DNA of 32,436 nt from assembly GCA_018240405.1 (NCBI GenBank), contig JAFEFW010000016.1, positions 1 through 32,436 of the forward strand, read 5' to 3'. Made by a program: the position numbers and the translations under genes. Shown piece after piece: positions 8,161-27,632 of the stretch. The DNA is from Pseudomonadota bacterium (GTDB taxonomy: Bacteria; Pseudomonadota; Alphaproteobacteria; Acetobacterales; Acetobacteraceae). Each line of letters opens with the position of its first letter. The stretch's first letter is position 1. Under the pieces are notes generated by a model that was not told the origin of the DNA, did not search any database, and saw nothing but the letters and a program-made list of their open reading frames with translations.

Positions 8161-8269
8161 CAGCTTATTGTTTTAGCGCGCGATTCACGCCCTGTCGACG
8201 TTCTGCCCAGGGCGATCCCGCGCTAGAGCTGCCGTGGCCCGGTGTCGTTTGCGACCGTGGGCGGCGACT

Positions 8270-11042: not shown

Positions 11043-11214
11043 GATTGTTTGTACCGTCTCCCGGTCTTTCGCCAGCCGCGCAGTGCGCCTGGGTGCATCC
11101 GGGGACCCGGCGTTGGAACACCGCAATCCGCAACTTGCGGTGGCCCGTCGCAGCGCCCACCAGGTTCGCGCATGGCCGGGATCATTAATCCGCGGAACAT
11201 CACGTTTGCGCCGC

Positions 11215-11245
11215 CGTCATGGCCCGGCTTGTTCCGGCCATGACG
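11215..11245. repeat. Palindromic intergenic repeat of alphaproteobacterial type
   Basis: CGTCATGGCC is mirrored by GGCCATGACG around a short centre, giving a 31-base imperfect palindrome (outer nine bases perfectly complementary). From memory it resembles an intergenic palindrome dispersed in many alphaproteobacterial genomes, which typically contains a CATGGCCGGGCTTGTCCCGGCCAT-like core. It lies between the binding-protein and ATPase genes of one importer. As a transcript hairpin it could limit read-through or protect the binding-protein mRNA, a common arrangement when the binding protein is needed in excess. It is both a repeat and a possible regulatory hairpin. Confidence 0.7.
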
Positions 11246-11272
11246 ACAAAGCAACGAGATGAGTCACGTCAC

Positions 11273-12457
11273 TTACTTCCCGACCCGTGCGCCGACCTGC
11301 TGGTCCCAGCGCTGGAACGCGTAGACCAGCTTGTCGGCGGGCAGAGGCGTCTCCGACGGCACCTCGGCAATCAGCTTGTCGTAAAACGGGCGGTTAAACT
11401 CCTTGATCGCGTCCTGGCTCTCCTGCGGCGCCATCGATAGCGGCACGTCCTTTACCGCCGGACCGGGGTAGAAATAACCCTTATCCCATGTCGTGGCCTG
11501 CGCCGGCTTGGACAGCACGTAGCTGATAAGTTGCAGCAGCACAGCCAGCTTTTCCTGCGACACGCCCTTCGGCACGGCCATGTATTGCGCGTCCGTCACC
11601 CAGTGGAAGCCCTGCAACACGGCGACTTCGGCTTCCTTTGGCACGACGCCCAGGATGCGTGGGTTGATGTCCCACCCGGTCATGGTGACGATCATGTCGC
11701 GCGAGCCTTCACCCAACTCCTTCATGGTCGCGCCTGTTCCAGTTGGATAATACTCGATGTTCTTGCCCAACTCGACCAGGTACTCCCAGGTCTTTGCCCA
11801 GCCATCCTTGGGGTCCTTGGGATCGGCATCGCCCAGCAGATAGGGCAGGCCTTGCAGAAAGGTTCGGCCGGGGCCGGAATTGGCAGGGCGGGCATAGACG
11901 AAGCGCTTCGGGTGCGCGCGCGTCCAGTCCAGCAGCTCCTGCGCCGTCTTCGGCGGTGTCTTCACCGCGTCGGGCATGTATTCCAGCAACGGTCCGGCCG
12001 GGCAGTAAACGACGCAAACCGCCTGGCCCTGCGCCAGCCCCTGCATCTTCAGCGCGCCTGGTTGGTAGATCGCGTTCAGGTCGGGCAGCGCGGTGGCGTA
12101 GTCGTTGACCATCGGCACCCACAGCCCCTGGTCAATGCCCGCCGACATCGCATCGGTGCCGGTCAGCACCAGATCGATATCGACGCGGCCAGCGGCCTGC
12201 TGTGCCTTCAGCTTGCCGGGTAATTCCGGCGCCGGCGCCTGGCTGAAGCCGATCTTCGCCACCAGCTTCGGATTGGCCTTGGCGAAATCCTCCATTGCCC
12301 GCTGGGTCAACTGCAACTGCCCGGCGACATCGATCACGTTCAGCGTCACCGGTTCCTTGGGCAGTGCGGGCGGCGCGGCAGCCTGCGCTCTGCCGAAGGC
12401 CGCAAGCGCGGCGGCGCCACCGAGAAGGGTGCGCCGCGTCGCAATCGGATGTGTCAT
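11273..12457 (-). CDS. Tat-exported extracellular solute-binding protein (PotD/SBP_bac_6-like)
   Basis: A 394-residue periplasmic binding protein with a twin-arginine-like signal peptide (A-T-R-R-T-L-L-G-G, cleavage probably after A-Q-A near residue 26). The mature protein starts V-T-L-N-V-I-D-V-A-G and shows the two-lobed architecture of polyamine, iron or spermidine-type binding proteins. Ligand-related segments include D-L-V-L-T-G-T-D-A and the later W-D-I-N-P-R. A good ribosome site (AGGGGAGC) precedes the ATG. It heads the importer operon and is divergent from the LacI-family gene, with only 88 bases between the starts, so that regulator probably controls it. The ligand is unknown; this SBP class is broad. 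Confidence 0.9.
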   Translation of the reverse strand: MTHPIATRRTLLGGAAALAAFGRAQAAAPPALPKEPVTLNVIDVAGQLQLTQRAMEDFAKANPKLVAKIGFSQAPAPELPGKLKAQQAAGRVDIDLVLTGTDAMSAGIDQGLWVPMVNDYATALPDLNAIYQPGALKMQGLAQGQAVCVVYCPAGPLLEYMPDAVKTPPKTAQELLDWTRAHPKRFVYARPANSGPGRTFLQGLPYLLGDADPKDPKDGWAKTWEYLVELGKNIEYYPTGTGATMKELGEGSRDMIVTMTGWDINPRILGVVPKEAEVAVLQGFHWVTDAQYMAVPKGVSQEKLAVLLQLISYVLSKPAQATTWDKGYFYPGPAVKDVPLSMAPQESQDAIKEFNRPFYDKLIAEVPSETPLPADKLVYAFQRWDQQVGARVGK

Positions 12458-13835: not shown

Positions 13836-14657
13836 TCAGGGAACGGACCGTACGGCCTTCTCCGCTGCCTTCACCTGCTGCCAGCCTGCCTCCATCTGAT
13901 CCAGCGAAAGCTCCGCCAGGCTACGGCCTTCCTCGGTGAAAATGGCCTCCATTGCATTGAACCGCCGAGCGAACTTGTCGTTGGCGTGGCGCAGGCACTG
14001 TTCCGGGTCCAGCTTCAGCTTCCGGGCCAGATTGGCCAGCACGAAAAGCATGTCGCCGACCTCGTCCTTCAGCCGCTCCGGGTCTGCTTCGGGCAACTCG
14101 GCGCGTAGTTCACACACTTCCTCGTCCAGCTTGGCCAACACCTGGTCGGCGTTCTCCCAGTCGAAGCCAACCTGCGCGGCGCGCCTGGTCAGCTTGACCG
14201 CACGGGTCAGGGCAGGGAGCGCGATGGGCACCCCCTCGAGCGTGCCATGCTGTTGCTTCGCTGCCCGTTCGGCCTGCTTTTGCACCTCCCACGCTGCGGT
14301 CTGCTGTTCCGCGTCGCGGACCGCCGCGTCGCCAAAAATGTGCGGGTGGCGGCGGATCATCTTGTCCGTGATCAGCCTGGCCACGTCGGCAAAGGCAAAA
14401 TACCCGGCTTCCTCGGCCATGCGGGCGTGGAACACCACCTGGAACAGCAGGTCGCCCAGCTCGTCCGGCAGCGCGGTGAAGTCGCGCGCGGCGATGGCGT
14501 CGGCGACTTCGTAGGCTTCCTCGATCGTGTAGGGCGCGATCGTGTCGAAGCTCTGCTCCACGTCCCACGCGCAGCCCTGTACCGGGTCACGCAGTCTGGC
14601 CATGATGTCGAGCAGGCGGCGGAGTTCGGCTTCGGCCGATGCGGCAGGATCGGACAT
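13836..14657 (-). CDS. mazG: Nucleoside triphosphate pyrophosphohydrolase MazG
   Basis: A 273-residue protein with two tandem MazG domains, which hydrolyses (d)NTPs to monophosphate and pyrophosphate and limits aberrant nucleotides and the stringent alarmone response. The first domain has the metal-binding pattern E-E-A-Y-E (46-50) and D-E-L-G-D-L-L-F-Q-V (65-74), then R-R-H-P-H-I-F-G-D. The second repeats it as L-D-E-E-V-C-E-L and D-E-V-G-D-M-L-F-V. The frame stays open far upstream, but homologues begin near M-S-D-P-A-A-S at 14657, which leaves a 65-base gap to the preceding gene. It is the last gene of a four-gene minus-strand run. Confidence 0.94.
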   Translation of the reverse strand: MSDPAASAEAELRRLLDIMARLRDPVQGCAWDVEQSFDTIAPYTIEEAYEVADAIAARDFTALPDELGDLLFQVVFHARMAEEAGYFAFADVARLITDKMIRRHPHIFGDAAVRDAEQQTAAWEVQKQAERAAKQQHGTLEGVPIALPALTRAVKLTRRAAQVGFDWENADQVLAKLDEEVCELRAELPEADPERLKDEVGDMLFVLANLARKLKLDPEQCLRHANDKFARRFNAMEAIFTEEGRSLAELSLDQMEAGWQQVKAAEKAVRSVP

Positions 14658-14722
14658 AGGGCGCGGATACCGGCGGGTTTCAGCGGGTGCAAGGCGAAAG
14701 CTGCTGACGGGGCCGACCTTGT

Positions 14723-16960
14723 TCAGTCGTAGAAGTATTTGCTCTTCTGCGCCCAGGTGCTGCCCTTGTAGCGGGCCTGCAGCAGCACATACGCCCGGTA
14801 CGATGATCGATTGTGCCCGCTGCCAAAGCGGCTCACGCGGATCAACCAGTACAATGCTTCGGGCGAACGTGGGTCCTTTGGATGCGCCTTGGCATAGGCC
14901 AGCAGATCTTCCCACACCGAACCCGCGGTTTTTTGATTGGCAGGCTGGTACTGGCCGCGTTCCCTGGCCACCGCGCCGGCCGAAGCCTGGACGAACGCCG
15001 GCAACCGGAACGGGAATATGCCCGGCCCGCACATGCCGTAGCAGACGACATCGCCCTTGACCTCTGGCGCGGGCACGGCAGCGGCACTTACCGGGGCGTA
15101 AAGCCAGTCGTGCCAATGCCCTTCGAAATCGGCGACCGCACCCTGTGGCCGCGTATAGGTGCCACCGAGGTCGACATCGAGGCCGGGCATCTTGACCAGC
15201 ACGAACCAAGCAGCGAAGCGGCGGTCCTCCGGGGTTTTCGCCGCCAGGAACGCCTTCCACTCGGCTTCCAGCTGCGGCAACAGGGTCTGCAGCACCGTCG
15301 TCAGGCGCTGTGCCGTGCCCACGTCCTGCATCAGCACCGCCCGAGTCCAACTGGTAAGCGCGACATCCAGGCGCAGCGGTGCCGGCAGCGTTTCGTCCTG
15401 GGCGAGGCGCTGCCGCGCCGGCAGCGGCAGGCGGTCGATCACCGCAATCGCATCATCGCCGAACCGCACGTCCGGACGGTTCGGGGAGTAGGGCAGGCTT
15501 TCCAGACCAAACATTTCCACCAGGCAGCCCTTGGGGTTGCCGTCCTCTGCCAGGCAGGGAGATGTGCGTGGCGCCAGCCGGGTCAGATCACCCAGGTCGT
15601 GCGCCACCATCGTGCGCTCCGCGAGCAACAGATTGCGTGTGGTTTGCGACAGGTCCGTCCGCGCTAAGGCGGTGTCCAGTTCGGCGCGCAAGGCGCCGGT
15701 GTCACTGCCATTGTCCAGACGGAAGCGGTGATACAGGGCGGTCAGGTAAGCCGGGTTATCGGGCGGGATCGCCTTGGCTGCCTCGGTTAGTTCCGTCGCC
15801 GCAGCACCTGGGTCCGACCATGCGAGCGCGGCGAGCAACCAGGGCGGCTGCTTCTGCTCCGCCCAACGGCCGCGGGCGTGGTCCAGCGCATCGGCGTCTG
15901 TCTTCCAGACGTTGTCGGTGCCGAAATGCTCAAACCATGCGGTGTCGGTCTGGTCCGGCTCGCGGCCAAATACCGCGAGCCAGTCGAGATAGGCTGGCTC
16001 GCCCGGCGGTGACTGGCCGAGGCGGCGGGAGTCCTTGAAGTCGGCAGCAACATTCGGCGGCAGGGTCGCCGCTGTCAGCATCCGCGCCAATTCGCGGCGC
16101 CGGGCCTCGGAGCGATCGCGGAAGTCGAGGGCGCCGGCAAGGGTAATGAGGTCGACGTGGCCATAGGCCGTTGGCGGCGCCAGGGCAATCAGGCGGCGGC
16201 GCGCGTTGGCGTATAGCTCCGGATCTTGGGTGGGTAGCGCCGCGGTGACCGCTGCGCGGGCGGCCAAATACGGCGCCATGCTGCGCCAGGGTGATGCTGC
16301 GTCCGCGGCAATGGCGTCGAAGAGTTGCTGTGCCTTGGCAAAGTCACGGCGGTAGAGCGCGACAGCGGCGGCCTGGTAGGCGCGGTCGCGCTTCAGCCAG
16401 TCCGGCGCCTTCGGGTCGAGCGGCGGCAGGTCGGCATCGCTGCTGCAATTGGCGAAGACGATATCCTGCCCGTCCAGCCAAACCTTGACCCACGGGGTGG
16501 AGGCGCCGTTCTTGGCGACACGGTCAGCGAGGGTGCGCTGCGCGGTGTCGAATGCGTCCGGGAAGCAGGTTTGCACCGCCATGAAGTCGCGCACCGGACG
16601 GTAGACATCGATGTAGTCGTTCCGGATCGCCACTGCGCCCGGTACGGCGCTGCGCGCCTTGAGCCAGGCTTGGGTCGCTGCAGCAATGCCGGCGTTGTCG
16701 CCGCCACAGCAGGGCAGGGACAGCGCCGCGCCTGCCTGCGCGCCAACCGGCATCCCCTGCAACATGCGCCACCCGGCGAAGAGCCGCGGCCACGGTGCGC
16801 GGCCCATTAGGATGCCCGGATTGCCCTTGTAAAACGCCTCCTGCTCGGCCGGCGTCCCGCCATAGGGATCGATGGTCCAGGGGATGCTGTAGCCGCCGCC
16901 GGATGCGAGCGCGTTAGTGGTGCAGAACAGCAGGCCGAGAGTCAGGAGCAGGCGCTTCAT
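14723..16960 (-). CDS. Exported alpha-helical protein of unknown function, partner of DUF3142 gene
   Basis: A 745-residue protein with a Sec signal peptide (basic M-K-R, hydrophobic core, cleavage likely after A-L-A at 19). The mature part is alanine-rich and helical, with repeated A-x-x-L-Y-R-R/A-x-A-L patterns like a TPR or other alpha-solenoid. Possible disulfide-forming cysteines occur at L-P-C-C-G-G and near the end at C-Y-G-M-C-G-P-G. The C-terminal ~50 residues (S-P-E-A-L-Y-W-L-I-R-V, H-N-R-S-S-Y-R-A-Y, Y-K-G-S-T-W-A-Q-K-S-K-Y-F-Y-D) are the part that looks most conserved. It overlaps the DUF3142 gene by four bases. From memory the two genes travel together in other proteobacteria; function unknown. 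Confidence 0.85.
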   Translation of the reverse strand: MKRLLLTLGLLFCTTNALASGGGYSIPWTIDPYGGTPAEQEAFYKGNPGILMGRAPWPRLFAGWRMLQGMPVGAQAGAALSLPCCGGDNAGIAAATQAWLKARSAVPGAVAIRNDYIDVYRPVRDFMAVQTCFPDAFDTAQRTLADRVAKNGASTPWVKVWLDGQDIVFANCSSDADLPPLDPKAPDWLKRDRAYQAAAVALYRRDFAKAQQLFDAIAADAASPWRSMAPYLAARAAVTAALPTQDPELYANARRRLIALAPPTAYGHVDLITLAGALDFRDRSEARRRELARMLTAATLPPNVAADFKDSRRLGQSPPGEPAYLDWLAVFGREPDQTDTAWFEHFGTDNVWKTDADALDHARGRWAEQKQPPWLLAALAWSDPGAAATELTEAAKAIPPDNPAYLTALYHRFRLDNGSDTGALRAELDTALARTDLSQTTRNLLLAERTMVAHDLGDLTRLAPRTSPCLAEDGNPKGCLVEMFGLESLPYSPNRPDVRFGDDAIAVIDRLPLPARQRLAQDETLPAPLRLDVALTSWTRAVLMQDVGTAQRLTTVLQTLLPQLEAEWKAFLAAKTPEDRRFAAWFVLVKMPGLDVDLGGTYTRPQGAVADFEGHWHDWLYAPVSAAAVPAPEVKGDVVCYGMCGPGIFPFRLPAFVQASAGAVARERGQYQPANQKTAGSVWEDLLAYAKAHPKDPRSPEALYWLIRVSRFGSGHNRSSYRAYVLLQARYKGSTWAQKSKYFYD

Positions 16961-17688
16961 GCCGGTAGTCTATCGCGAATGGCGTCCAGTGCGTCAGGCG
17001 TCCAGGGGCGCGGGTTGAACAGCCAGATCCGCCGCCCCGCTGGCAGCCGGGACGGTGGCGTGTCGGTGGCGACGCCAATGGCGGTGCGGCAGCGGGCCAG
17101 GCGGAAATCACCGCCCGTGGCCAGGCGCTGTCGCAGCTTCTCGCCATTTTGGCCCATGCGGAACAGCATCGGCACGATCTCGTCCGCCGCCGCGGCGTCG
17201 AGCCAAGTCTCAGTCTCGCACCAGGAGGCGAGCGCGGTCATCGAAAGGTGCCGTTCAGCCGGCAGCCCGTCCCGCACATCGCGTACGAGGTCCAGCAGCA
17301 CGCCACGCTGCGACGCACGCACCTCGAAATCGATCTGCACCTCGACAAAGCGGGAGTCGCGGAGCAACCCAAGCACCAAGGCGGCGGTGCGCGCGCGCTG
17401 TGACTCCGACCAGGACGGCGGCTGCGTGCGGTCGATCTCGACATGCACGACGCCGGCGACACGTTGCGACGGCCCGACTTTGGCGGGCTGCAGACGCGGT
17501 CTGGCGAAGACCTCCGGGCCGCGGAGCGTGACTGTGCCCGCGAGCACGGCAATGGTGACGCCGGGGCCGGCAAAGGCAAGGTCTTCCGGCCGTTCCCACG
17601 CCCATAGCACCAGCGGGGTCGTCGGCGGTGCGCCGCCGATCAATATCAGCGCGCTGGCCAGCGCAATCAGCCGCAGGGTGCAGATCAT
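16957..17688 (-). CDS. DUF3142 domain-containing protein
   Basis: A ~243-residue protein with an N-terminal hydrophobic segment that serves as a signal peptide or membrane anchor (M-I-C-T-L-R-L-I-A-L-A). I recognise the DUF3142 pattern: L-W-A-W-E-R-P-E-D-L near the start, V-H-V-E-I-D, V-Q-I-D-F-E in the middle, then M-T-A-L-A-S-W-C and E-I-V-P-M-L-F-R-M-G. The motifs resemble the strand-loop acidic residues of a TIM barrel or glycoside-hydrolase-like fold, but no activity is established to my knowledge. I chose ATG 17688 to place the signal peptide at the N-terminus; ATG 17715 is also in frame. It overlaps the next gene by four bases, so they probably act in one exported system. Confidence 0.85.
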   Translation of the reverse strand: MICTLRLIALASALILIGGAPPTTPLVLWAWERPEDLAFAGPGVTIAVLAGTVTLRGPEVFARPRLQPAKVGPSQRVAGVVHVEIDRTQPPSWSESQRARTAALVLGLLRDSRFVEVQIDFEVRASQRGVLLDLVRDVRDGLPAERHLSMTALASWCETETWLDAAAADEIVPMLFRMGQNGEKLRQRLATGGDFRLARCRTAIGVATDTPPSRLPAGRRIWLFNPRPWTPDALDAIRDRLPA

Positions 17689-17757
17689 GGGGCCGCGGCA
17701 GGACCTGGAAGTCAAACCGGTGTCCCGCGGTGGAGGTGCCGCCCGCGGCGCATGGCG

Positions 17758-19122
17758 CTACGCCGCAACCACCGGCAAGCCGGCCAGCGCGGCGTCCAGC
17801 ATTGCGGCATCATAGTCCCGATCCTGCAGCTTGCCGGCGAAGTAGTCGAGATAGGCTTGCATGTCGAAATGCCCGTGACCGGACAGGTTGAAGGCTATGG
17901 TCTTGGCCACGCCATCCCGCTTGCAACGCAGCGCCTCGTCGATCACAGCGCGAATGGCGTGCGAGCATTCAGGGGCAGGGACGATACCCTCGGTGCGGGA
18001 GAACTGCACCGCGGCCTCGAAGCAGGCAGTTTGGTGGAATGCCCGCGATTCAATCAGACCGAGTTCCTGGACCAGGCTGACCAGCGGCGCCATGCCATGG
18101 TAGCGCAGACCGCCGGCGTGGAAGCCCGGCGGGATAAAGGTGCTGCCGAGCGTATGCATCTTTACCAGCGGTGTCAGGTGGCCGGTGTCGCCGAAGTCGT
18201 AGGCATACCGGCCACGGGTCAGGGTCGGGCAGGCGGCCGGCTCGCAGGCGATCGCCTGCACTGTGCGCCCACCGCGCAACTGCGCGCCAAGGAACGGGAA
18301 TACCAGGCCGGCAAAGTTCGAACCGCCGCCGGTGCAGCCGATGACGATATCTGGGTAGTCGTCCGCCATGGCGAACTGCTCGATTGCCTCGAGGCCGATG
18401 ACGGTCTGGTGCAGCAGCACGTGGTTCAGCACAGAGCCGAGAGCGTAGTTGGTGTCGGCGTTCTGCGCGGCGATTTCCACCGCCTCGGAGATGGCAATGC
18501 CGAGGCTGCCGGAGGTGTCCGGCATCTCTGCCAAGACGCGACGCCCGGCTTCGGTCTCATTGCTGGGGCTGGACACGCAGTTGGCGCCCCAAACTTCCAT
18601 CATCGCCTTGCGGTAAGGCTTCTGGTTGAAGCTGGCACGCACCATGAAGACCTTGACCTCCAGGCCGAACAGCGTGCCGGCATAGGCGAGGGAGGATCCC
18701 CATTGCCCGGCACCGGTTTCAGTGGTCAACCGCCGGATGCCGGCTTCCTTGTTGTAGAAGGCCTGGGCAACAGCGGTGTTCAGCTTGTGGCTGCCAGGTG
18801 CGCTGACACCCTCATACTTGAAGTAGATGCGGGCCGGCGTATCCAGCGCCGCTTCGAGCCGCCGTGCCCGGATCAGTGGCGACGGCCGCCATTGCCGGTA
18901 GAGCGCCCGCACCGGTTCCGGAATCGGCACCTGCCGTTCCGCGGTGACCTCCTGCAGGATCAGTTCCGGTGGAAACAGCGGTGCGAGATCAGCGGGCCCG
19001 ACCGGCTGCTTCGTACCAGGATGTAGCGGCGGTGCCGGAGGTTGCGGCAGGTCGGCAACAATATTGTACCATTCTTTCGGAATCCGGGTCTCGTCGAGAA
19101 GGTATTTGACGGTTTCACCCAT
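17758..19122 (-). CDS. TrpB2-type pyridoxal-phosphate-dependent synthase (TrpB-like)
   Basis: A 454-residue PLP enzyme of the TrpB2 (tryptophan synthase beta-like) class, which condenses serine with indole to give tryptophan. The Schiff-base Lys113 sits in G-S-H-K-L-N-T-A (110-117). The catalytic T-E-T-G-A-G-Q-W-G is at 134-142 and the phosphate-binding G-C-T-G-G-G-S-N at 262-269. The length and the extended N-terminus (E-W-Y-N-I near 17-21, with the P-P-L-H-P block) separate it from canonical TrpB1. No trpA lies beside it. TrpB2 proteins act without the alpha subunit and often scavenge free indole. It heads the minus-strand run toward DUF3142 and is divergent from the acyl-ligase operon across a 612-base gap. 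Confidence 0.92.
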
Positions 19123-19734
19123 GACTCAGCCTTTGTGTTGTCGTTGCACCGGATCTAGCACGCGCCGGCACAAGCCGGAATTCCGCGGCCGAACAATTGC
19201 CGCTGGGGTTGCGCCGCCGCCGCTCGCTCCGTGGCGGGCGCGGGCCGGTTTGGTTAACGGCTCACCCTGCCAGGTCCCGCTCTGACCACCACGGGACGCA
19301 CGGGGCCATGAGCCGAATCAAATCCGGAGCGTTGCGCCGAGGGTAACGGACGCGCAGTGGCCGACATCCGCTGCCGACGCGAAGATTGCGTCGGCTCGCC
19401 GCTCAGCGCGCTGCAATTCAGGCATTATCTCACGTGCCGGAACAGGACCGGTGGGCGAACGGTAGCTAGCGGTCATCGTAACATTCTGATATACGACCTG
19501 CCACAGGTGCAAACAGACGGGGCGCTACCATAGCAACTGATGCTGTGCTTCGGCGTCTGAGCGATCGGCCTGTTGCGGCTGGTGCAGCGTGTTGCGTTTG
19601 GGGAGACGGCGATAGGATGCGCAGGAGTCGTTGCTGTGGCGGTACGCCCATCAACTCCGGGGATGCAGTCTCATTGATGACGATCATGCATTGCAGCCTG
19701 ATCACATTATGCAACCGATGCAGGCCGCCTCATA
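19123..19734. other. 612-base divergent intergenic region
   Basis: No convincing gene is visible. The region separates the minus-strand trpB2-type gene from the plus-strand acyl-ligase operon, so it must hold promoters for both. It has two compact inverted repeats: GCCGACGC/GCGTCGGC at 19373-19395 (eight-base stem, seven-base loop) and ACCTG-CCA-CAGGT at 19496-19508. Neither is followed by a T-run. The last ~70 bases before the ATG at 19735 are less G/C-rich than the rest and contain repeated ATGCA/TGCA words. The ribosome site before that ATG is weak, only a CAGG far upstream. Confidence 0.45.
19496..19508. promoter_or_regulatory. Short palindrome upstream of the acyl-ligase operon
   Basis: ACCTG-CCA-CAGGT is a perfect five-base inverted repeat about 230 bases before the ATG at 19735. 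The ACCTG half-site recalls lux-box-like and other dimeric-regulator sites. It is short enough to occur by chance, so I report it only as a candidate regulator-binding site. Confidence 0.2.
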
Positions 19735-22700
19735 ATGGCTGAACGGGTCGGGGAAGCGTTCGTATTCCCCGATATCGTGCGCCAACGCGCGGTCCTGCAT
19801 CCGGAGCGGCCGGCACTGACCTTCCTGCGCTATCGGTCCGCCGAAGACCCGCTTTGCGAGCGCCTACGCTACAGCGAACTGCTGCATCGGGCACAGGCGG
19901 TGGCGGCGGTCCTGCAGGATCGCACGGTGCGCGGCGACCGCGCCTTGATTCTGACACCTCCCGGCCCGGACTACATCGTCGGTTTCCTCGCCTGCCAGCT
20001 CGCCGGAGTGGTTCCCGTCCCTGCCTACCCACCGCGCGCTTCGCGGCACGTGGCACGGCTGGTGGCGATCGCCGCCGATTGCGCGGCTGCGGCGGTGCTG
20101 GCGGTCACTTCGGTCATGCAATCCCTGACGGCATGGGGCGAGGGACGGCTGCCTGAGTGCATCGCCATCGATGCGATACCGGACAACGCGGCTTCGGCCT
20201 GGCGCGATCCGGCTGTTGGCCCGGCCGATCTGGCCTTCCTGCAATACACCTCCGGCACGACAGGCGCGCCAAAAGGTGTGATGGTCGGACACGACGCACT
20301 GATGGCGAATTTTGCCGCCACGGCCGCCCGTCTCGGCCTGACGGATGCGGATACCCATGTCACCTGGCTACCGCCGTATCATGATCTTGGCCTGATCGGC
20401 AGCCTGTTGCAGCCGCTTTATTTTGGCCAGCATACGGTAGCAATGGCTCCTGCGGCGTTCCTGCAGGAGCCACTGCGCTGGCTCCGCACAATCGCAGCAT
20501 TCCGCGGTACCACCAGCGCTGCGCCCAACTTCGCCTATGAGCTATGCTGCGGGCTGGACGTGCCGGACACGCTTGATCTGTCGTCCTGGCGCTGCGCCGT
20601 ATCCGGAGGCGAACCGCCGCGCGCTCGGACGCTCGAACGGTTTTCGGAACGGTTCGGCCCAGCCGGGTTTGCCGTTGAAGCGTTCTGCCCCGGCTACGGT
20701 CTGGCTGAAGCAACGCTGCAGGTCGCCGTGAAGCCGTTGGGCCGCCGGCCACGTTCGCGGCGGTTCAGGGCAGGGACCGGCGGCGACACGCTTGCCGTTG
20801 CCAACGGTCAACCGCTGGACGGACACATGATTCGGGTTGTGGATCCGGCTACGGGTGTTGCCTGCGCGCCCGGCGTGCCAGGCGAGCTTTGGGTCCGTGG
20901 GCCGACAGTGTCGCGCGGCTATTGGGGACAGCCGGAAGCCACCGCGGCAGCGTTCGGTGCGCAACTGACGGGCGAAGAGCGGGCCGGCAGCTTTCTGCGG
21001 ACCGGCGACATCGGCACTATCGTCGACGGCGAGGTCTACGTGCTTGGCCGCCTGAAGGAGCTGATCATCCTGCGCGGGCGCAACCACTACGCGAAGGACC
21101 TCGAAGCCGAGGTGGCGGACAGTCATACGTCGCTTCAAGCCGACAGCACGATTGCCTTCGGGTTGGACGACGGCGCCGCCGAGCAACTGGTGATCGTGCA
21201 GGAACTGACGCGTGCTGCGCTGCGGGCATTGGATGCCCCGGCACTATTCACCGCGATTCGCCAAGCGCTCGTCGAGGCCTATGAGGTCGCACCCCATGCG
21301 ATCGTCCTTGTTCGACCAGGCAGCCTGCCGCGGACAAGCAGCGGCAAACTGCAGCGGTTGGCAGCGCGGGCCCAGTTTCGGGCGAGCACCCTGGTTGCCG
21401 TGGCCGAGTGGCGGGAATCCGCTGACCGGGCCGAACCGGCAGGATCGCCGGCCGGCGATCCGGGCATCCGCGCACAGCTTGTGTCTTTGCCACGCGGCAA
21501 GCGGCGGGAGGCGCTGTTGGACTGGCTGGCGTCGCAGGTGCAGGCGGTGCTCCGCCTGCCGGCGCCGCCCACACCGGTCGCTGATTTCGAGATACTTGGT
21601 CTGGACAGCCTGATGGCGCTGGAGTTGCGGCAGCGGCTGGACTCTGAGCTCTCACTTGCCCAGCCCTTGCCACCGGCAGTCCTGACGGAACGGCGGAATA
21701 TTGTGGCCTTGGCCAGCGCAATCGAAGCCGCCATCGGGGCCAATTGCGCGTTTCCGCCGGCCGCGACCATGCCTGCGCTGGCGCCGCCGAAGTGGGACGA
21801 CGACGTATCAGCGACGCTGACGCGCCTGTATGGCGGCCGCGCACCCGCGAATAACTGGTCAGACGTCGAGGCCCTCTACCAGGATTTCCTACGCGGCGAG
21901 GGGGCGCAACTGCAGCGCGATTTGGAGGCATTCTACCGGGCAAATCCCGGCACTGCCTATCACCAGCTCTACCGAAATGCCTACCTGCGGCGGCGCGAGC
22001 GATTGCCGTTCGATCCCGCCGCCCAGGTTGTCGCTGCAGTGCTGCGCCTGCCGGATCGTCTAGCTGGTGCCTCTGTGGCGGCCCGCAGCGGCGCGCTGGC
22101 CGCGGCTGTGGCAGACATTGTACCAGTTGCCGCGGCCTATCCGGAGGGCCTAACGACAGTCCGCCGGATCGGACGCGATCACGATATGCTGGTGCCAAGC
22201 CGGCAGGGCAGCCGGCATATCGTCATATTCCACAGCGGCGACATCCTGGAACTGGATTTGGCCGGGCTGACAGCTGCTGCGACTGCCCGTGCGGTCGCGC
22301 AGGTGGTAGCGCAACGGCTCTCTACAGCCGCGATACACAACGCGAACTGGCTGCCGGCTGCCACCGCGGCGGCGAAGCCGGACGCAGACCGGCTGCTGCG
22401 GGTTAGCAAAGCCGACCCGACGCTGAACGAAACCATAACGGCGATCGAGTCGGCGGTATGCGTGCTCGTTCTTGATCCGGCGACCGGTGGCGATCCAGCA
22501 GCGCTGCACACCAGGACGCTGTTCGGTAACGGCGGCGACAGGTGGCACGGCCAGCATCATTTGGTGATCTTTGCTTCGCCGTATCTGGGCCTGCTGGCGG
22601 ACCATGCCGCGCTGGACGGATTGTCGGGCCTGCGCCTGGCACAGGCAATGCTGACGCGTGCCGAGACTCTCGTTGCCGCTGCCGAAAGCTCCCGTAGCGA

Positions 22701-23562
22701 TGCGGCGCCAACATCGCCGGTGGCAAAAGCGTGCGACAACCCAGAGACTTCGGTGCCTTGGAAAGCGGCGCAAGCGGATGCGGTGCCACCGCCGCCACAC
22801 GATCCGCAGCGGCCGGCCTCTCGTCTGCTTCCAGCGCCGGTCGGCGCGCTACGGGATGAGCTTGCCGCCATCGCGGCACGCGTCGCCGCAGATGCCGCGA
22901 CCCTTCATGCGGCCCAAATGGTGGTGCCCGGGCTACCACATCGTGCGCTGCCACGCCTGCCGGCCTTGTTCGCCATAGCATCCAGCCGGGCAGGGCTGGA
23001 GGCGCTCGGGCAGGAGGTAGATGTGTACTCGTCTGTCTCTCTGGCGCATTTCCAGCACGGGCGGGTCACCGGCGTGCGCGGCCGTCCACCAGAGACGGCA
23101 TCCCTGTTACGCTCATGGCCGGTGCCCGCCGTGGCGCCCGATGCCGGCCTGCTGGAGAAGGCGATCGACGAGTGGACTGGGCTCTATCGCAGTGCCGCGG
23201 CCGGCGGGGAATTTTATACACACCTCGTGCAGCTTGCGCATATTGCGGCGCATACCGGGCGCGACCCGGCTTTTTTTCGTCAAGCCGAAATCCAGGACCT
23301 GATGGATTGGCCGCCGCTGGTGTCATCAGGCATTCTGAGCGCGCCAGTGCCAACATGGGTTGGCTTTCCAGCGCCGCCGGGCGGCCTGTCGGTCGCTGCG
23401 ACACTCTGCCGGAACGAGAACGCAACAGACGTCGCCTTGCAAATTCTGGTTATGGGTGAGGCGGATAAGGCGCCCCGGTTCCTTGCCACCTTAGGCGTGA
23501 CGCTGGACGCGTTAGCCCGTGTCGTAATCCGTTCGGACCCGGCGGAGGCCGGGCGCGCATGA
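19735..23562 (+). CDS. Fatty acyl-AMP ligase - acyl carrier - choline/carnitine O-acyltransferase fusion
   Basis: A 1275-residue three-part enzyme. Residues 1-~560 are an adenylating fatty acyl-AMP ligase: Y-T-S-G-T-T-G-A-P-K-G (171-181), Y-G-L-A-E-A-T, the aspartate of T-G-D-I-G, and the C-terminal Lys538 in P-R-T-S-S-G-K. Residues ~590-668 are an acyl carrier domain with the phosphopantetheine Ser625 in L-G-L-D-S-L. Residues ~685-1265 match the choline/carnitine acyltransferase fold: catalytic His957 in L-A-D-H-A-A-L-D-G, the G-N-G-G-D-R-W segment, and Y-S-S-V-S-L-A-H-F-Q-H-G-R (1098-1110). Predicted action: activate a fatty acid with ATP, load it on the carrier, then transfer it to a hydroxyl acceptor. 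The residues after G-R are V-T-G, matching neither the carnitine nor the choline pattern I know, so the acceptor is open. The stop overlaps the next start by four bases. Confidence 0.88.
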   Translation: MAERVGEAFVFPDIVRQRAVLHPERPALTFLRYRSAEDPLCERLRYSELLHRAQAVAAVLQDRTVRGDRALILTPPGPDYIVGFLACQLAGVVPVPAYPPRASRHVARLVAIAADCAAAAVLAVTSVMQSLTAWGEGRLPECIAIDAIPDNAASAWRDPAVGPADLAFLQYTSGTTGAPKGVMVGHDALMANFAATAARLGLTDADTHVTWLPPYHDLGLIGSLLQPLYFGQHTVAMAPAAFLQEPLRWLRTIAAFRGTTSAAPNFAYELCCGLDVPDTLDLSSWRCAVSGGEPPRARTLERFSERFGPAGFAVEAFCPGYGLAEATLQVAVKPLGRRPRSRRFRAGTGGDTLAVANGQPLDGHMIRVVDPATGVACAPGVPGELWVRGPTVSRGYWGQPEATAAAFGAQLTGEERAGSFLRTGDIGTIVDGEVYVLGRLKELIILRGRNHYAKDLEAEVADSHTSLQADSTIAFGLDDGAAEQLVIVQELTRAALRALDAPALFTAIRQALVEAYEVAPHAIVLVRPGSLPRTSSGKLQRLAARAQFRASTLVAVAEWRESADRAEPAGSPAGDPGIRAQLVSLPRGKRREALLDWLASQVQAVLRLPAPPTPVADFEILGLDSLMALELRQRLDSELSLAQPLPPAVLTERRNIVALASAIEAAIGANCAFPPAATMPALAPPKWDDDVSATLTRLYGGRAPANNWSDVEALYQDFLRGEGAQLQRDLEAFYRANPGTAYHQLYRNAYLRRRERLPFDPAAQVVAAVLRLPDRLAGASVAARSGALAAAVADIVPVAAAYPEGLTTVRRIGRDHDMLVPSRQGSRHIVIFHSGDILELDLAGLTAAATARAVAQVVAQRLSTAAIHNANWLPAATAAAKPDADRLLRVSKADPTLNETITAIESAVCVLVLDPATGGDPAALHTRTLFGNGGDRWHGQHHLVIFASPYLGLLADHAALDGLSGLRLAQAMLTRAETLVAAAESSRSDAAPTSPVAKACDNPETSVPWKAAQADAVPPPPHDPQRPASRLLPAPVGALRDELAAIAARVAADAATLHAAQMVVPGLPHRALPRLPALFAIASSRAGLEALGQEVDVYSSVSLAHFQHGRVTGVRGRPPETASLLRSWPVPAVAPDAGLLEKAIDEWTGLYRSAAAGGEFYTHLVQLAHIAAHTGRDPAFFRQAEIQDLMDWPPLVSSGILSAPVPTWVGFPAPPGGLSVAATLCRNENATDVALQILVMGEADKAPRFLATLGVTLDALARVVIRSDPAEAGRA

Positions 23563-24722
23563 TCGCCGCTACGGTTCCCCGCCAGCCGTCCGCTCCTGGT
23601 CTTCAGTCAGCGGCCATTGCCGACGACGCGCTATATGTGCGATTCCGGAACAACGAGACGCGGATTTTCCTCGCAGCGATGTTGCGGGAGAACAGCCCGG
23701 ACCCATCGACAACGCACCCGGTGACGCAGGAGCGGCTGGTTTCCCTGTGCGAGCTGCCGGGCGATCTGAGCGTTGTCGCGGCCGACGTGGTTGATGGAGG
23801 GACGTCCCTCCGGCTGCGCTTTTCCGACGGCCATGCGGTGGCTTTCAATGCCGGTGCACTGTGGCTCATGGATCGCGCCGAGGTAATACCCGCACGCGTC
23901 GCATGGGACGCAGCGGATGCGTCTCGGCTTCCCGCGCACGACTGGGCGGAAATCGTCCGGAACCCCGCGGCGGAAAGCCGATGGTTGTCTGCGGTGCAGG
24001 AATTTGGCTTTGCGCTGGTGCGCGGCACGCCGGCCGACCCGGCGTTCCTGGAGAGCTCGGCCACCCGGATCGGACCGATCCGCGACACGAATTTCGGACG
24101 CATCTTCGATGTAGCAACGACCGTCGAGCTGACATCAAACGCCTACACGGAAATTGCCCTTGGACCGCATACGGACCTGGCGACCCGTGAGCACCAGCCG
24201 GGCCTGCAATACCTGCACTGCATCACCAACGCGGCCGAGGGCGGCGACAGTCTTATTGTTGATGGCCTTGCGCTGTGCCGGCGTCTGGCCGCCGAGGACC
24301 CTGTCGCTTGGCGAGTGCTGACGACAACGCCGATCCCTTTCGCCAACAAATCGGCGGACTGTGACTATCGTTGGCGCGGGCCGGTTATACGGCTGGGTCC
24401 GGACGGCGAACTCGACACGCTGCGCTTCACCATGTGGCTACGGGCGCCACTGGTCGGACCGATCGAAGAGGTGAGGGCAGTCTACCGGGCACTGCGCACC
24501 ATCATCCGGCTGGCCGAAGATCCTGCGCTGGTGTTCCGCTTCCGTTTGCGGCCGGGGGACCTGCTGCTGTTCGACAATGGCCGCATCCTGCATGGCCGCT
24601 CGGCATTCCGGCCCGAGACCGGACCGCGCTGGTTGCGTGGCTGTTACGGCGAACGCGAGGACATCGCGTCGCGCCAGCGCCTCTTGGCGCGCGCTCCCGC
24701 CGCTTCCGATCCGATGACTTAA
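23559..24722 (+). CDS. Gamma-butyrobetaine hydroxylase-like 2-oxoglutarate/Fe(II) dioxygenase
   Basis: A 387-residue oxygenase of the gamma-butyrobetaine/trimethyllysine hydroxylase group, which hydroxylate a quaternary-ammonium substrate. The iron triad is readable as H-T-D at 204-206 (within G-P-H-T-D-L) and His345 in R-I-L-H-G-R-S-A-F; Arg357 or Arg360 should hold 2-oxoglutarate. The core block P-G-L-Q-Y-L-H-C with G-G-D-S-L-I-V-D-G (214-236) is typical. Aromatic residues Phe179, Phe183 and Tyr196 align with the trimethylammonium cage of human BBOX1. The N-terminal DUF971-like domain is present (L-R-E-N-S-P-D-P-S-T-T-H-P-V-T), but its zinc cysteines are replaced. The length equals that of human BBOX1. 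It overlaps the fusion gene by four bases (ATGA), and the methyltransferase gene follows after 11 bases. Confidence 0.88.
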   Translation: MIAATVPRQPSAPGLQSAAIADDALYVRFRNNETRIFLAAMLRENSPDPSTTHPVTQERLVSLCELPGDLSVVAADVVDGGTSLRLRFSDGHAVAFNAGALWLMDRAEVIPARVAWDAADASRLPAHDWAEIVRNPAAESRWLSAVQEFGFALVRGTPADPAFLESSATRIGPIRDTNFGRIFDVATTVELTSNAYTEIALGPHTDLATREHQPGLQYLHCITNAAEGGDSLIVDGLALCRRLAAEDPVAWRVLTTTPIPFANKSADCDYRWRGPVIRLGPDGELDTLRFTMWLRAPLVGPIEEVRAVYRALRTIIRLAEDPALVFRFRLRPGDLLLFDNGRILHGRSAFRPETGPRWLRGCYGEREDIASRQRLLARAPAASDPMT

Positions 24723-24733
24723 AGGACCTGCCC

Positions 24734-26119
24734 ATGCCGTTCACGGAGCGTGATACAGAAACTTTCTATGACGCCCATGATAGCGAGTACCGCTCCTTCT
24801 GGGATTCCGAAGGGAGCCTGCATTGGGGGCTGTATGAGCAGGAGCCGGAGCCCGATGGCAGCGACTATCTGGCTGCCTGCCTGCGCAGCAATCAGCGGCT
24901 GGCGTCGGCGCTGCAGCCAATCGGACCCGACTCACATGTGCTGGACCTGGGTTGCGGCAACGGCAACTCGGCACTGTGGCTGGCCCGGCATACTGGCGCA
25001 CGGGTTACTGGCATCGACCTGAGCGGCGTTCGCGTTGGCCACGCCATCGCGGCAGCCACACGCGCCGGGATGGATCGTGTGTCATTCCGCAAGGCATCGG
25101 CTACGGAATTGCCGTTTGAGTCCGGCACCTTCACCCATGTCTGGAGCCAGGCGACGCTGTATCACGTGCATGACCGCCGGCGTGCGCTGGCTGAAATCGC
25201 GCGCGTGCTGAGGGCAGGGGGCGTGTTTGCGTTCGATGATCTGGTGCAGCCGAACCGCCAAGTCAGCGCCCTCGCCCAACGCTACGTCTATGATCGGCTT
25301 CTGTACGGACCGACCTTCTCGCATGATGATTACAGAGCGGCCCTGGCGGAAGTCGGGCTGATGCCGCTGACACATGCAGACTGGTCGCTGCATCTGCGCC
25401 GCAGCTATCAGGCATTGGCGCAGCGTGCCATGCCGGCCTACCCGGATCTCGCGCTCGCCTACAATAAGATGAATGAAGCGATCGACCTGGGGGATCTCGG
25501 CTGGTCCTTCTTCCGTGCGCTGCGTGTGACGGATGCGCTGGACTGGGTTTACGACACCCGGGACCACATTGATATTGCAACAAAATACGATGCCTGGGCG
25601 CCGGTTTATGAAGCCGACGTAGGACGTGACTATCACGACCTTGTGGAAGCTGCCGCATGCCGCTTCGCCAAAGCCAGCACGGTCGACGGAGGTGCTGTGC
25701 TGGATATCGGCTGCGGCACCGGTTTGGTCGGTGCGGCACTATCGCGGCACGGCATGGCCGCACTGGTCGGTGTCGACCCGTCGCGCGAGATGCTCGTGCG
25801 ATGCCGGACCAAGGGCGTGTACACGCAGTTGCATGCGGCTAAGGTCGACGAACTGGATGGCATGGCCGGCCTTCCTGCAGCGGCGGCCATCGCTGTCGGA
25901 GTCTTCACTCATGGGCACGCGCCGTTGGCGCACCTGCCGCACGCCGCGCGTGCCGTGCAGCCAGGCGGCGTTCTTGGCGTGGTACTGCGGGAGGACATCG
26001 CCGCCAGCGATGCGTTTCCGGCAGCCCTGGCTTCGATGCCGGCGCGCTATACGGGGCGCGTGCCGGTTGGCCGGTTTGACGGCCAGACGCTCGATCTGCA
26101 CACTTGGCACCGGATCTGA
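24734..26119 (+). CDS. Tandem SAM-dependent methyltransferase (two domains)
   Basis: A 461-residue cytoplasmic protein with two Rossmann methyltransferase domains. The first (residues ~1-270) has motif I V-L-D-L-G-C-G-N-G-N (69-78), G-I-D-L-S-G-V (93-99), V-W-S-Q-A-T-L-Y-H-V and V-L-R-A-G-G. It resembles N-methyltransferases of the sarcosine/dimethylglycine or phosphoethanolamine type. The second (~280-461) has Y-D-A-W-A-P-V-Y-E, V-L-D-I-G-C-G-T-G-L (322-331) and resembles METTL27-like proteins. Both cofactor loops look intact. The frame is open upstream into the previous gene, but ATG 24734 has AAAGGA seven bases before it and lies 11 bases after the dioxygenase stop. Context suggests it makes a quaternary ammonium for the dioxygenase. 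The methyl acceptor is not known. Confidence 0.87.
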   Translation: MPFTERDTETFYDAHDSEYRSFWDSEGSLHWGLYEQEPEPDGSDYLAACLRSNQRLASALQPIGPDSHVLDLGCGNGNSALWLARHTGARVTGIDLSGVRVGHAIAAATRAGMDRVSFRKASATELPFESGTFTHVWSQATLYHVHDRRRALAEIARVLRAGGVFAFDDLVQPNRQVSALAQRYVYDRLLYGPTFSHDDYRAALAEVGLMPLTHADWSLHLRRSYQALAQRAMPAYPDLALAYNKMNEAIDLGDLGWSFFRALRVTDALDWVYDTRDHIDIATKYDAWAPVYEADVGRDYHDLVEAAACRFAKASTVDGGAVLDIGCGTGLVGAALSRHGMAALVGVDPSREMLVRCRTKGVYTQLHAAKVDELDGMAGLPAAAAIAVGVFTHGHAPLAHLPHAARAVQPGGVLGVVLREDIAASDAFPAALASMPARYTGRVPVGRFDGQTLDLHTWHRI

Positions 26120-26160
26120 TGGTGCGCGCAGCCGTTTGAGGAAGCGATAGGTGAAGGCGG

Positions 26161-26180
26161 CCGGCTTGCGCCGCAGCCGG
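26161..26180 (+). terminator. Weak hairpin after the acyl-ligase operon
   Basis: CCGGCT (26161-26166) pairs with AGCCGG (26175-26180) around an eight-base loop, 41 bases after the methyltransferase stop codon. There is no proper U-tract after it, so it may slow or partly stop transcription at best. It is the only hairpin I see between this operon and the next gene. Confidence 0.25.
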
Positions 26181-26202
26181 TTCAGGTATTCGACGTAGAC
26201 CG

Positions 26203-26227
26203 CATAATGAATATTATGTTAATTAAC
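26203..26227. promoter_or_regulatory. AT-rich palindromic island before the small unknown gene
   Basis: CATAAT-GAAT-ATTATG (26203-26218) is a six-base inverted repeat, abutted by the perfect ten-base palindrome GTTAATTAAC (26218-26227). This is the most A/T-rich short stretch I notice in the window and lies 65-90 bases before the ATG at 26293, so a promoter or operator is plausible. The exact -35/-10 elements cannot be fixed by eye. Confidence 0.4.
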
Positions 26228-26292
26228 GTGCTACCTTGAGATCGGCGGCCTACCTGTGGCAACGCAGCCCGACAACAACGGACGGCCCGACC

Positions 26293-26778
26293 ATGACCGA
26301 CCGCTTCCTGATCGCCGCGCTGACTGACCGCTTGATTTACGACGACGACACTACCTTCAGCGCCGACGACGCACGCCAGCTGCTTGCGGCGTTGCCGCGC
26401 AAGCGCTCACCATGGTTCCAGCTTGGCATCGCCGGAAAGATGTCCGGAGGTTCAAGCCGAGGCTTCGCCGCCGGCGTCGGCGACGTGCAGGTCAAGGACA
26501 AGAAAGACCGCACGTTCGAGTACAACAGCGCCGCTGACGCGTTCACGCGCGCCGGCCAGTGGAAGCTGATGGTGCTAACGCGGCGTGGCCGGATGTTTGT
26601 GGACATCGAACAGGTCATGGCGGATGTGGGCGACGAAGGACGAGGCGCGCTGATCAGCTACGACCTCGACGGCAAACCGTTGGCTATGGATATTCGCGTA
26701 AACCGCTCCTGGCGGCTGTTCTGGTCGCCTGTGGTGGTAGTGATACCGGGCTGGAAGCCTTGGAAGACGCCTGTGTGA
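26293..26778 (+). CDS. Conserved-looking small protein of unknown function
   Basis: A 161-residue soluble protein that I do not recognise. It begins M-T-D-R-F-L-I-A-A-L-T-D-R, has a charged helix (D-D-A-R-Q-L-L-A-A-L), a glycine/serine-rich turn (G-K-M-S-G-G-S-S-R-G-F), then alternating polar and hydrophobic strands, and ends with a tryptophan-rich tail (W-R-L-F-W-S-P-V-V-V-V-I-P-G-W-K-P-W). There is no signal peptide or membrane segment, apart from a short hydrophobic patch near the end. I chose ATG 26293 over an in-frame ATG at 26236, since the extra residues look like non-coding sequence. An AT-rich palindromic region precedes it, so it is probably transcribed separately from the acyl-ligase operon. 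Confidence 0.65.
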   Translation: MTDRFLIAALTDRLIYDDDTTFSADDARQLLAALPRKRSPWFQLGIAGKMSGGSSRGFAAGVGDVQVKDKKDRTFEYNSAADAFTRAGQWKLMVLTRRGRMFVDIEQVMADVGDEGRGALISYDLDGKPLAMDIRVNRSWRLFWSPVVVVIPGWKPWKTPV

Positions 26779-26840
26779 GCGGCCCGCTCATGAACGCGCC
26801 CGGCATCTCCGCTCCGCGACCGCTCGATCGCCACGCGCCA

Positions 26841-27632
26841 CTACGGGACCGTCAGCACCATGCCGTCGTAACCGGCTTCAACACCCGGCGGCAGATTGGC
26901 CTGCATCCAGGCCCAGTCCATGTCAGTTCCCATATGCGTCAGCACCGTTCGCCGCGGCTTTAACCTTTGCACCCAACCAAGAACCGTCTCCAGATTGGCA
27001 TGAGTCCAGTGTTGACCCTTGCGCAGAAAGCAGCCGACGACCCAGGTGTCGACATCTTCCAGCACCTGGAACGCTGGCTCTTCCAGCTTCACCACATCCG
27101 TTGAATAGGCAAAGCCGCCGATGCGCAGGCCGAGCGTGTCAACACGGCCATGGTTCTGGTTGAAAAGCCGGACCGACATGCCGGCGGCCTCGATCGTCTG
27201 GTATGGCTCAACCACTTCGCCCGTCAGAACGGGACGATAGAAACCCGGTGGCTGCCACGGCTTGAAAGCGTAACCAAAGCGCCGGCTCAGCTCATCCAGC
27301 GTCGACCGCGTCGCGTAGGCAGTCAGCGGCCGGTCAACAATACGATTGAGGATGCGCACGTCGTCCATGCCGGTAATGTGGTCGGCATGGGAGTGCGTGA
27401 ACAGAATGGCATCCACACCGGCCACCCGGCAGGCCAGCAATTGGCTTCGCATATCCGGCGAGGTATCAACCAGAAGCCGCTGATTTGATGACATTTCAAT
27501 ATAGATTGACGAACGGGTGCGCCGGTTGCGCGGCTCACTTGGATCGCACTCGCCCCAGTCGCCGCTGCCGTCCACCCCACCAATCATCGGCACGCCGGCG
27601 GAGGCGCCGACACCCAGCAGCGTGACCCTCAT
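26841..27632 (-). CDS. MBL-fold metallo-hydrolase (PhnP/RNase Z-like phosphodiesterase)
   Basis: A 263-residue metallo-beta-lactamase-fold hydrolase. The metal motif T-H-S-H-A-D-H is at 79-85 (His80, His82, Asp84, His85). The opening G-V-G-A-S-A-G-V-P resembles the G-T-G-x-S-x-G-V-P of PhnP-type cyclic phosphodiesterases; the later metal ligands lie in N-H-G, Y-S-T-D-V and L-T-H-M-G-T-D-M. PhnP hydrolyses phosphoribosyl 1,2-cyclic phosphate, but no phn genes are here, and a homologue at this position beside tatD and metG is common in alphaproteobacteria. I therefore call the fold and not the exact substrate. It overlaps tatD by four bases and closes the operon. Confidence 0.88.
   Translation of the reverse strand: MRVTLLGVGASAGVPMIGGVDGSGDWGECDPSEPRNRRTRSSIYIEMSSNQRLLVDTSPDMRSQLLACRVAGVDAILFTHSHADHITGMDDVRILNRIVDRPLTAYATRSTLDELSRRFGYAFKPWQPPGFYRPVLTGEVVEPYQTIEAAGMSVRLFNQNHGRVDTLGLRIGGFAYSTDVVKLEEPAFQVLEDVDTWVVGCFLRKGQHWTHANLETVLGWVQRLKPRRTVLTHMGTDMDWAWMQANLPPGVEAGYDGMVLTVP

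Follow-up and report, generated by a model that had tools for sequence, protein, structure and literature searches.

A FAAL-ACP-acyltransferase fusion, an oxygenase and a tandem methyltransferase in one operon of an Acetobacteraceae genome: a candidate route to quaternary-ammonium fatty esters

A three-gene operon and its domains

On contig JAFEFW010000016.1 of assembly GCA_018240405.1, the draft genome of a Pseudomonadota bacterium of the Acetobacteraceae, we analysed positions 1 to 32,436 (the window, i.e. the whole 32,436-nucleotide stretch of DNA), and describe here an operon of three genes on the + strand at 19735-26119. The first gene (19735-23562, ATG start, 1275 amino acids) encodes a fusion of a fatty acyl-AMP ligase (FAAL), an acyl carrier protein (ACP) domain and a domain with the choline/carnitine-acyltransferase fold (CAT). 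It overlaps by 4 bases the second gene, OX (23559-24722, 387 amino acids), an Fe(II)/2-oxoglutarate (Fe/2OG) oxygenase of the gamma-butyrobetaine-hydroxylase/TmpA type, and an 11-base gap (24723-24733) separates OX from the third, MT (24734-26119, 461 amino acids), a tandem S-adenosylmethionine (SAM) methyltransferase. The MT start was taken as the ATG at 24734, the program-made list of open reading frames opening this frame at an upstream TTG (24371). Coordinates and Pfam domains agree with the original prediction of three coupled genes with this overlap and this gap, and the domain identities that it proposed are borne out by Pfam and NCBIfam.

Along the fusion protein, residues 16-554 (19780-21396) form the ligase part (Pfam AMP-binding, 2.9e-67, and DIP2-like AMP domain, 2.2e-8), residues 596-663 (21520-21723) the carrier (PP-binding, 7.3e-7), and residues 706-1198 (21850-23328) are matched by Carn_acyltransf (1.1e-27). 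OX matches TauD (2.7e-48) and GBBH-like_N (4.8e-5), and MT matches Methyltransf_11 in two stretches, its halves (~24734-25552 and ~25553-26119) reaching 2.9e-25 and 3.1e-10 when scored alone. The values obtained for the three proteins are far beyond chance.

Over its full length, the ligase part is FAAL-like by model scores, its sequence resembling FAALs more than CoA ligases: the fatty-acid-AMP ligase model PRK05850 reaches 388 bits, against 274 bits for the best NCBIfam model named as a CoA ligase (PRK07768) and 165 bits for the general PRK06187. The top model overall belongs to a nonribosomal peptide synthetase/polyketide synthase (NRPS/PKS) subfamily (472 bits), and all four score below their curated cut-offs. 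The ligase part finds its closest PDB match in 7r7e (E 3.5e-135), an entry that carries the label polyketide synthase. Among plasmid records, 227 match the ligase; identities are 37-41% in the 25 of these 227 that were listed, and for 20 of those 25 the annotation reads NRPS, PKS, beta-ketoacyl synthase or amino acid adenylation protein. The fusion thus resembles the FAAL-ACP loading modules that feed PKS and NRPS assembly lines, but terminates in a CAT domain instead. Ser625, in a GLDSL motif, is the presumed attachment site of phosphopantetheine on the carrier. The draft genome gave one match to a phosphopantetheinyl transferase domain, located at the end of a contig.

Active sites of the acyltransferase-fold domain, the oxygenase and the methyltransferase

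The CAT domain scores 97.3 bits against PF00755, for a cut-off of 22.3. Alignment by hhalign with three bacterial standalone CATs gave a probability of 97 and an E-value of 9e-11 at 21% identity, identities to standalone CATs being 18-21% across the alignments, and the PDB chains of CPT2 and choline acetyltransferase (ChAT) matched with E-values of 9.5e-7 to 1.8e-4. His957, in the motif DHAALDG, aligns with the catalytic His343 of CrAT, and Tyr1098, Ser1198 and Phe1211 with its Tyr452, Ser554 and Phe566, while Ser552 of CrAT is replaced by Val1196; these and the following assignments were made at ~20% identity.

On the acceptor side, Val1111 stands at the position of CrAT Thr465 and Thr1162 at that of Arg518, two residues that are kept in all three bacterial standalone CATs and in the aligned CPT2 and CrAT. 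We take Thr465 and Arg518 to be the holders of the carnitine carboxylate in CrAT, and ChAT presumably has Val and Asn at these positions. Assuming these roles, the residue pair expected of a carnitine-specific acyltransferase is absent from the CAT domain.

On the donor side, K419 and K423 (CoA 3'-phosphate) as well as D430 and E453 (pantothenic arm site) are conserved across the metazoan carnitine acyltransferases and ChAT compared in PMC11852590. The CAT domain has no Lys within the 44-residue stretch AAQMVV..YSSVS; Ser1099 is the equivalent of E453, and the position of D430 is occupied by Ala (hhalign) or Pro (phmmer), i.e. replaced in two of three alignments. The CoA-side residues therefore appear to be lost in part. 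Compared with CrAT, CPT2, CROT and ChAT, the domain shares the family, the catalytic His and, by alignment, the equivalents of Tyr452, Ser554 and Phe566, but differs in the apparent replacement of part of the CoA site, in the replacement of the carnitine Thr/Arg pair, and in its fusion to a FAAL-ACP.

The nearest precedent lies in fungal highly reducing PKS with a C-terminal carnitine-acyltransferase (cAT) domain (LtbA, Tv6-931 and MaPKS17a), which transfers polyketides from the ACP to polyols or glucinol (PMC10901484). According to the description of the fungal enzymes, the likeness includes an acyltransferase fold placed directly behind the ACP in one chain, a carrier-held donor and a kept His; by contrast, the bacterial CAT stands behind a FAAL rather than a PKS, and its gene adjoins those of an oxygenase and a tandem methyltransferase.

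In NCBIfam, OX scores best with TmpA (298.3 bits, cut-off 400) and then with gamma-butyrobetaine dioxygenase (TIGR02409; 279.2 bits, cut-off 414.75), missing both cut-offs. These misses are weak evidence, since the oxygenase of the Burkholderia cenocepacia locus L003, encoded near an L-carnitine dehydrogenase, also falls below the latter cut-off (398.1 bits), as do the OX relatives at loci L015 (328.7) and L046 (240.6). The best named PDB matches of OX are TmpA, gamma-butyrobetaine dioxygenase and DfmD, all of which use trimethylammonio substrates (PMC9296572).

Relatives of OX were collected by a scan of genome contigs in which OX, aligned to three Burkholderia/Caballeronia relatives, served as the query; this yielded 457 pattern matches, 412 of them confirmed; residues were counted in 86 relatives, namely the best 80 of the 412 confirmed loci and 6 plasmid loci. 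The Fe/2OG residues H204, D206, H345 and R357 are invariant (86/86). At the aromatic cage positions, as placed by alignment, F179 is kept in 85, F183 and Y363 in all 86, and Y196 in 78 relatives, two of the four OX residues being Phe where human BBOX has Tyr177 and Trp181. By this alignment, the cation cage of OX is kept, and OX shares with gamma-butyrobetaine hydroxylase, TmpA and DfmD the GBBH-like_N and TauD domains, the metal- and cosubstrate-binding residues and the cage. The N-terminal side of OX lacks the cysteines of the three Burkholderia/Caballeronia relatives (RENSPDPSTTH vs RDNCPCSKCVH in L005); in BBOX, such cysteines bind zinc.

OX differs from these enzymes at the carboxylate end. 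Position 292 is Met in OX, opposite Asn287 of TmpA and Asn292 of human BBOX in the alignment, and none of the 86 relatives has Met there (N 64, D 12, S 6, P 3, A 1). Ser193, at the position of human BBOX Asn191, is shared by 77 of 86 relatives, so that neither member of the Asn191/Asn292 pair is found in OX. A role in carboxylate binding is given for Asn292 of human BBOX in PMC12067446, and for Asn191 and the main chain of Tyr205 in PMC13257696, which assigns the cage to Tyr177, Tyr194 and Trp181. In PMC9296572 the carboxylate residues are N191 and N293 in the human enzyme, N187, N287 and R288 in TmpA, and S183 and N288 in DfmD.

Each half of MT carries a glycine-rich SAM motif (VLDLGCGNGN and VLDIGCGTGL). 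The best NCBIfam model of the first half is sarcosine/dimethylglycine N-methyltransferase (NF041675; 113.5 bits, far from its cut-off of 550), and the second half has generic methyltransferase matches; over the whole protein, the DVU_1556 family is slightly ahead (122.4 bits vs 111.8 for the sarcosine/dimethylglycine model). Among PDB entries, MT comes closest to glucose O-methyltransferase 6uv6 (107 bits, over the first half), and the putative sarcosine/dimethylglycine methyltransferase 2o57 matches at 67.5 bits. MT has the SAM fold in common with sarcosine/dimethylglycine N-methyltransferase and with the tandem phosphoethanolamine methyltransferases, and a tandem arrangement is known for stepwise N-methylation. 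Given the first-half model, the 2o57 match and the SAM motifs on one side, and an O-methyltransferase as best structural match on the other, N-methylation by MT is a plausible prediction.

Oxygenase relatives, distribution and genomic setting

Genes of the L003 locus, named by NCBIfam/Pfam (L-carnitine dehydrogenase, 681.9 bits vs cut-off 414; BKACE, 342.8 vs 24.8), were used as queries against the 80 OX loci, and relatives of the dehydrogenase and of BKACE were found near the oxygenase at 70 and 68 of them, respectively. Ten of the 80 loci have neither, and these ten include L015, L016, L017 and L046. It is with exactly these four that OX groups in a tree of 33 chosen rows out of 87 (support 95/92), on a long branch (1.99) for which the tree tool cautions that the grouping could be spurious. 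The absent neighbours at L016 and L017 say little, because contig ends truncate both loci (to 5.7 kb and 13.0 kb). The genome that holds the operon (97.6% complete) has no BKACE match. On the basis of this tree group without carnitine neighbours and of the missing BKACE, OX is probably not an enzyme of carnitine catabolism here. The closest relative of OX (47%), at L015:7489-10071, lies directly behind a gene for a second TauD-family oxygenase and a GNAT gene, and the neighbours of the L046 relative include glycerate kinase and chaperonin genes; nothing resembling the operon was found there.

The CAT domain and the three-gene set were searched for in several genome sets, which overlap and whose counts include the own genome; in the order-set CAT search and in the class and order MT searches, scoring was limited to the top three or four first-look candidates per genome. 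PF00755 was found in 2 of 385 class genomes (the own and one standalone) and in 3 of 398 phylum genomes (the own and two standalone). The CAT protein matched the own genome only across the genus (34 genomes), and 4 of 396 genomes across the order, i.e. the own genome and three weak matches (E 4e-5 to 1e-3, 18-22.5 bits, internal stops) that were taken as chance. Of 372 genomes of the class and 376 of the order, the own genome was the only one in which MT was found at E <= 1e-30. The CATs of G031, G878 and G955 were rejected as relatives of the fusion, their open frames of 573-619 amino acids, with full-length PF00755, being too short. At L096 (G878:C29, ~3851-4540), a standalone CAT has a methyltransferase gene nearby on the opposite strand, 28% identical to the first half of MT (MT1); at this L013/L096 locus, OX and FAAL gave no match.

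Among the 80 OX loci, CAT gave no tblastn match, with a query that sees closer relatives only and that also missed three known standalone CATs in the database searched, and the ligase gave one, distant (27%), at L045. In 6 of the 41 plasmid records holding an OX match, no tblastn match to CAT, FAAL or MT1 was detected, and CAT matched no plasmid at E 0.01. A scan of genome contigs with six exact CAT peptides, of low sensitivity, returned 41 stretches, none confirmed, and scans of viral contigs with the OX alignment and with CAT confirmed none. In the literature searched, which left most subscription journals outside its scope, no bacterial FAAL-ACP-CAT was present among the matches listed in the available texts, and the carrier-fused CATs found there were fungal (PMC10901484, PMC8582187 and a Botryotinia PKS in PMC2613160). 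The expected conservation of the three-gene set elsewhere was thus not recovered in any set searched, each of these being a sample or limited in sensitivity: every part is known on its own, and their combination is not found elsewhere in the searches made. Rarity is not lack of function.

The genomic setting points to an acquired operon. The contig fits its genus, with flanking MBL, TatD and MetG proteins ~70-83% identical to those of ten congeners, and the operon lies inside a 12.2-kb stretch (14631-26840) between the MazG and MBL genes. In congener G664, the tblastn matches of MBL and MazG are 152 bp apart, against 12.2 kb in the window, and in G600 and G442 their spacing is ~2 kb; four others (G740, G724, G717 and G437) have no MazG within the fetched stretch, and the contigs of G703, G602 and G628 stop 4-5 kb beyond MBL. 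The stretches of these ten congeners gave no match to any of the three operon genes. Since it sits in a stretch that is variable among congeners, the operon looks acquired; no mobile element was identified, the search for terminal repeats at 14500-27000 giving no inverted pairs and only two-copy direct matches of 22-27 nt. The GC content at third codon positions (GC3) is 0.717-0.744 over the three genes vs 0.719-0.837 in seven neighbour genes.

In the same variable region, two open frames on the - strand (14723-17715; 745 and 252 amino acids) without Pfam match lie beside a TrpB2-like gene. TrpB2 and these frames (14723-16960 and 16957-17715) were ruled out as members of the system, being on the opposite strand with no link found. 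Outside the operon, the window also carries ABC transporter genes on the - strand (8223-12457), and the best-scoring model for their ATPase is that of putative 2-aminoethylphosphonate transporters (342.8 bits, cut-off 457.7).

A candidate pathway and its alternatives

Taken together, these features lead us to favour, tentatively and short of real confidence, a small pathway for a lipid conjugate, in which a fatty acid activated with ATP and held on the ACP would be esterified to a hydroxylated quaternary-ammonium alcohol that is choline-like rather than carnitine. As expected from its family, the FAAL domain would adenylate the fatty acid and load the ACP domain of the same protein. The tandem MT would build the quaternary ammonium group on an amine, and OX, with its kept cage, would hydroxylate the resulting compound. 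Using His957, the CAT-fold domain would finally transfer the acyl chain carried by the ACP arm onto the hydroxyl group of this small alcohol, as the cAT of fungal PKS does, which would give a fatty ester of cationic or zwitterionic character.

A quaternary ammonium compound as OX substrate is argued for by both the family and the cage of this enzyme. The acylcarnitine-like product of the original prediction keeps this part, as the cation cage is present by alignment, and loses carnitine in the strict sense: it is questionable whether the substrate has a free carboxylate, because CAT lacks the Thr and Arg and OX the Asn that would hold it. Likewise, the proposed comparison of active sites, carried out by alignment, recovered the catalytic His of CAT and the cage and Fe/2OG residues of OX, and did not recover the carboxylate-holding residues of CrAT and BBOX. 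As both pockets seem to be without such residues, a choline-like or otherwise carboxylate-masked quaternary-ammonium alcohol is the more likely acceptor, and the product is probably not the carnitine ester itself.

The donor logic that had been proposed, with an acyl group taken from a carrier, is in keeping with the presence of FAAL, ACP and CAT in a single chain. The route could be one-way overall only, ATP being spent; this need not extend to the transfer step, as one fungal ACP-cAT is reported to release and recapture its product, while another gave no reverse reaction (PMC10901484).

Several observations weigh against this pathway, beside the O-methyltransferase match of MT, the long branch of OX and the truncated relatives mentioned above. 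One MAFFT alignment sets an Asp opposite D430, after a large gap, and the Lys pair is missing from the standalone bacterial CAT of L014 as well; the loss of this pair alone is therefore no proof of an ACP donor, and the case for such a donor rests mainly on the fusion itself. One fungal cAT only hydrolyses the product off its carrier, and the isolated cAT of LtbA yielded no product in vitro (PMC10901484). As the searches gave no relative that combines the three genes, the link between them rests on the operon structure in one draft genome.

It is unlikely, in our view, that the operon makes a polyol or sugar ester in the fungal style, with CAT offloading a fatty acid to a polyol, MT acting as an O-methyltransferase and OX hydroxylating the acyl chain or the polyol. 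The characterised ACP-fused cAT domains do use polyols or glucinol (PMC10901484) and the best PDB match of MT is 6uv6, but the best named PDB relatives of OX take trimethylammonio substrates (PMC9296572), its cage is kept, and the first MT half has an N-methyltransferase as its highest-scoring NCBIfam model. Rather improbable, too, is the absence of any single pathway, with OX and MT serving unrelated functions, transcribed together within a variable island, and CAT maybe a degenerate remnant: the lack of co-occurrence in the sets searched and the low identity of CAT to standalone CATs would fit it, yet the 4-base overlap and 11-base gap, the similar GC3 of the three genes, the open frames and the kept catalytic and carrier residues speak against it. 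True acylcarnitine synthesis (MT trimethylating GABA or another precursor to gamma-butyrobetaine, OX converting it to carnitine and CAT acylating it from the ACP) is slightly less likely still, given the changed residues in CAT (V1111, T1162) and OX (Met292) and the grouping of OX apart from relatives with carnitine-catabolism neighbours, in spite of the carnitine-acyltransferase fold of CAT, of the 39-41% identity of OX to Burkholderia oxygenases of plasmid records, and of a B. cenocepacia L003 oxygenase, near L-carnitine dehydrogenase and BKACE genes, that itself misses the gamma-butyrobetaine dioxygenase cut-off.

The esterification of a choline-like quaternary-ammonium alcohol from a carrier-held fatty acid would then possibly represent, a claim that we hold with somewhat greater reserve, a bacterial CoA-independent three-gene route to a new class of fatty esters, combining N-methylation of an amine, cage-guided hydroxylation and carrier-to-alcohol transfer by a CAT fold. 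Such clusters may escape standard mining, because the NRPS/PKS module of antiSMASH had no cAT profile in 2021 (PMC8582187). If confirmed, the operon would bring into bacteria the ACP-to-alcohol release by a carnitine-acyltransferase fold, here with a self-contained FAAL donor, and would define a biosynthetic use for an oxygenase of the butyrobetaine-hydroxylase type.

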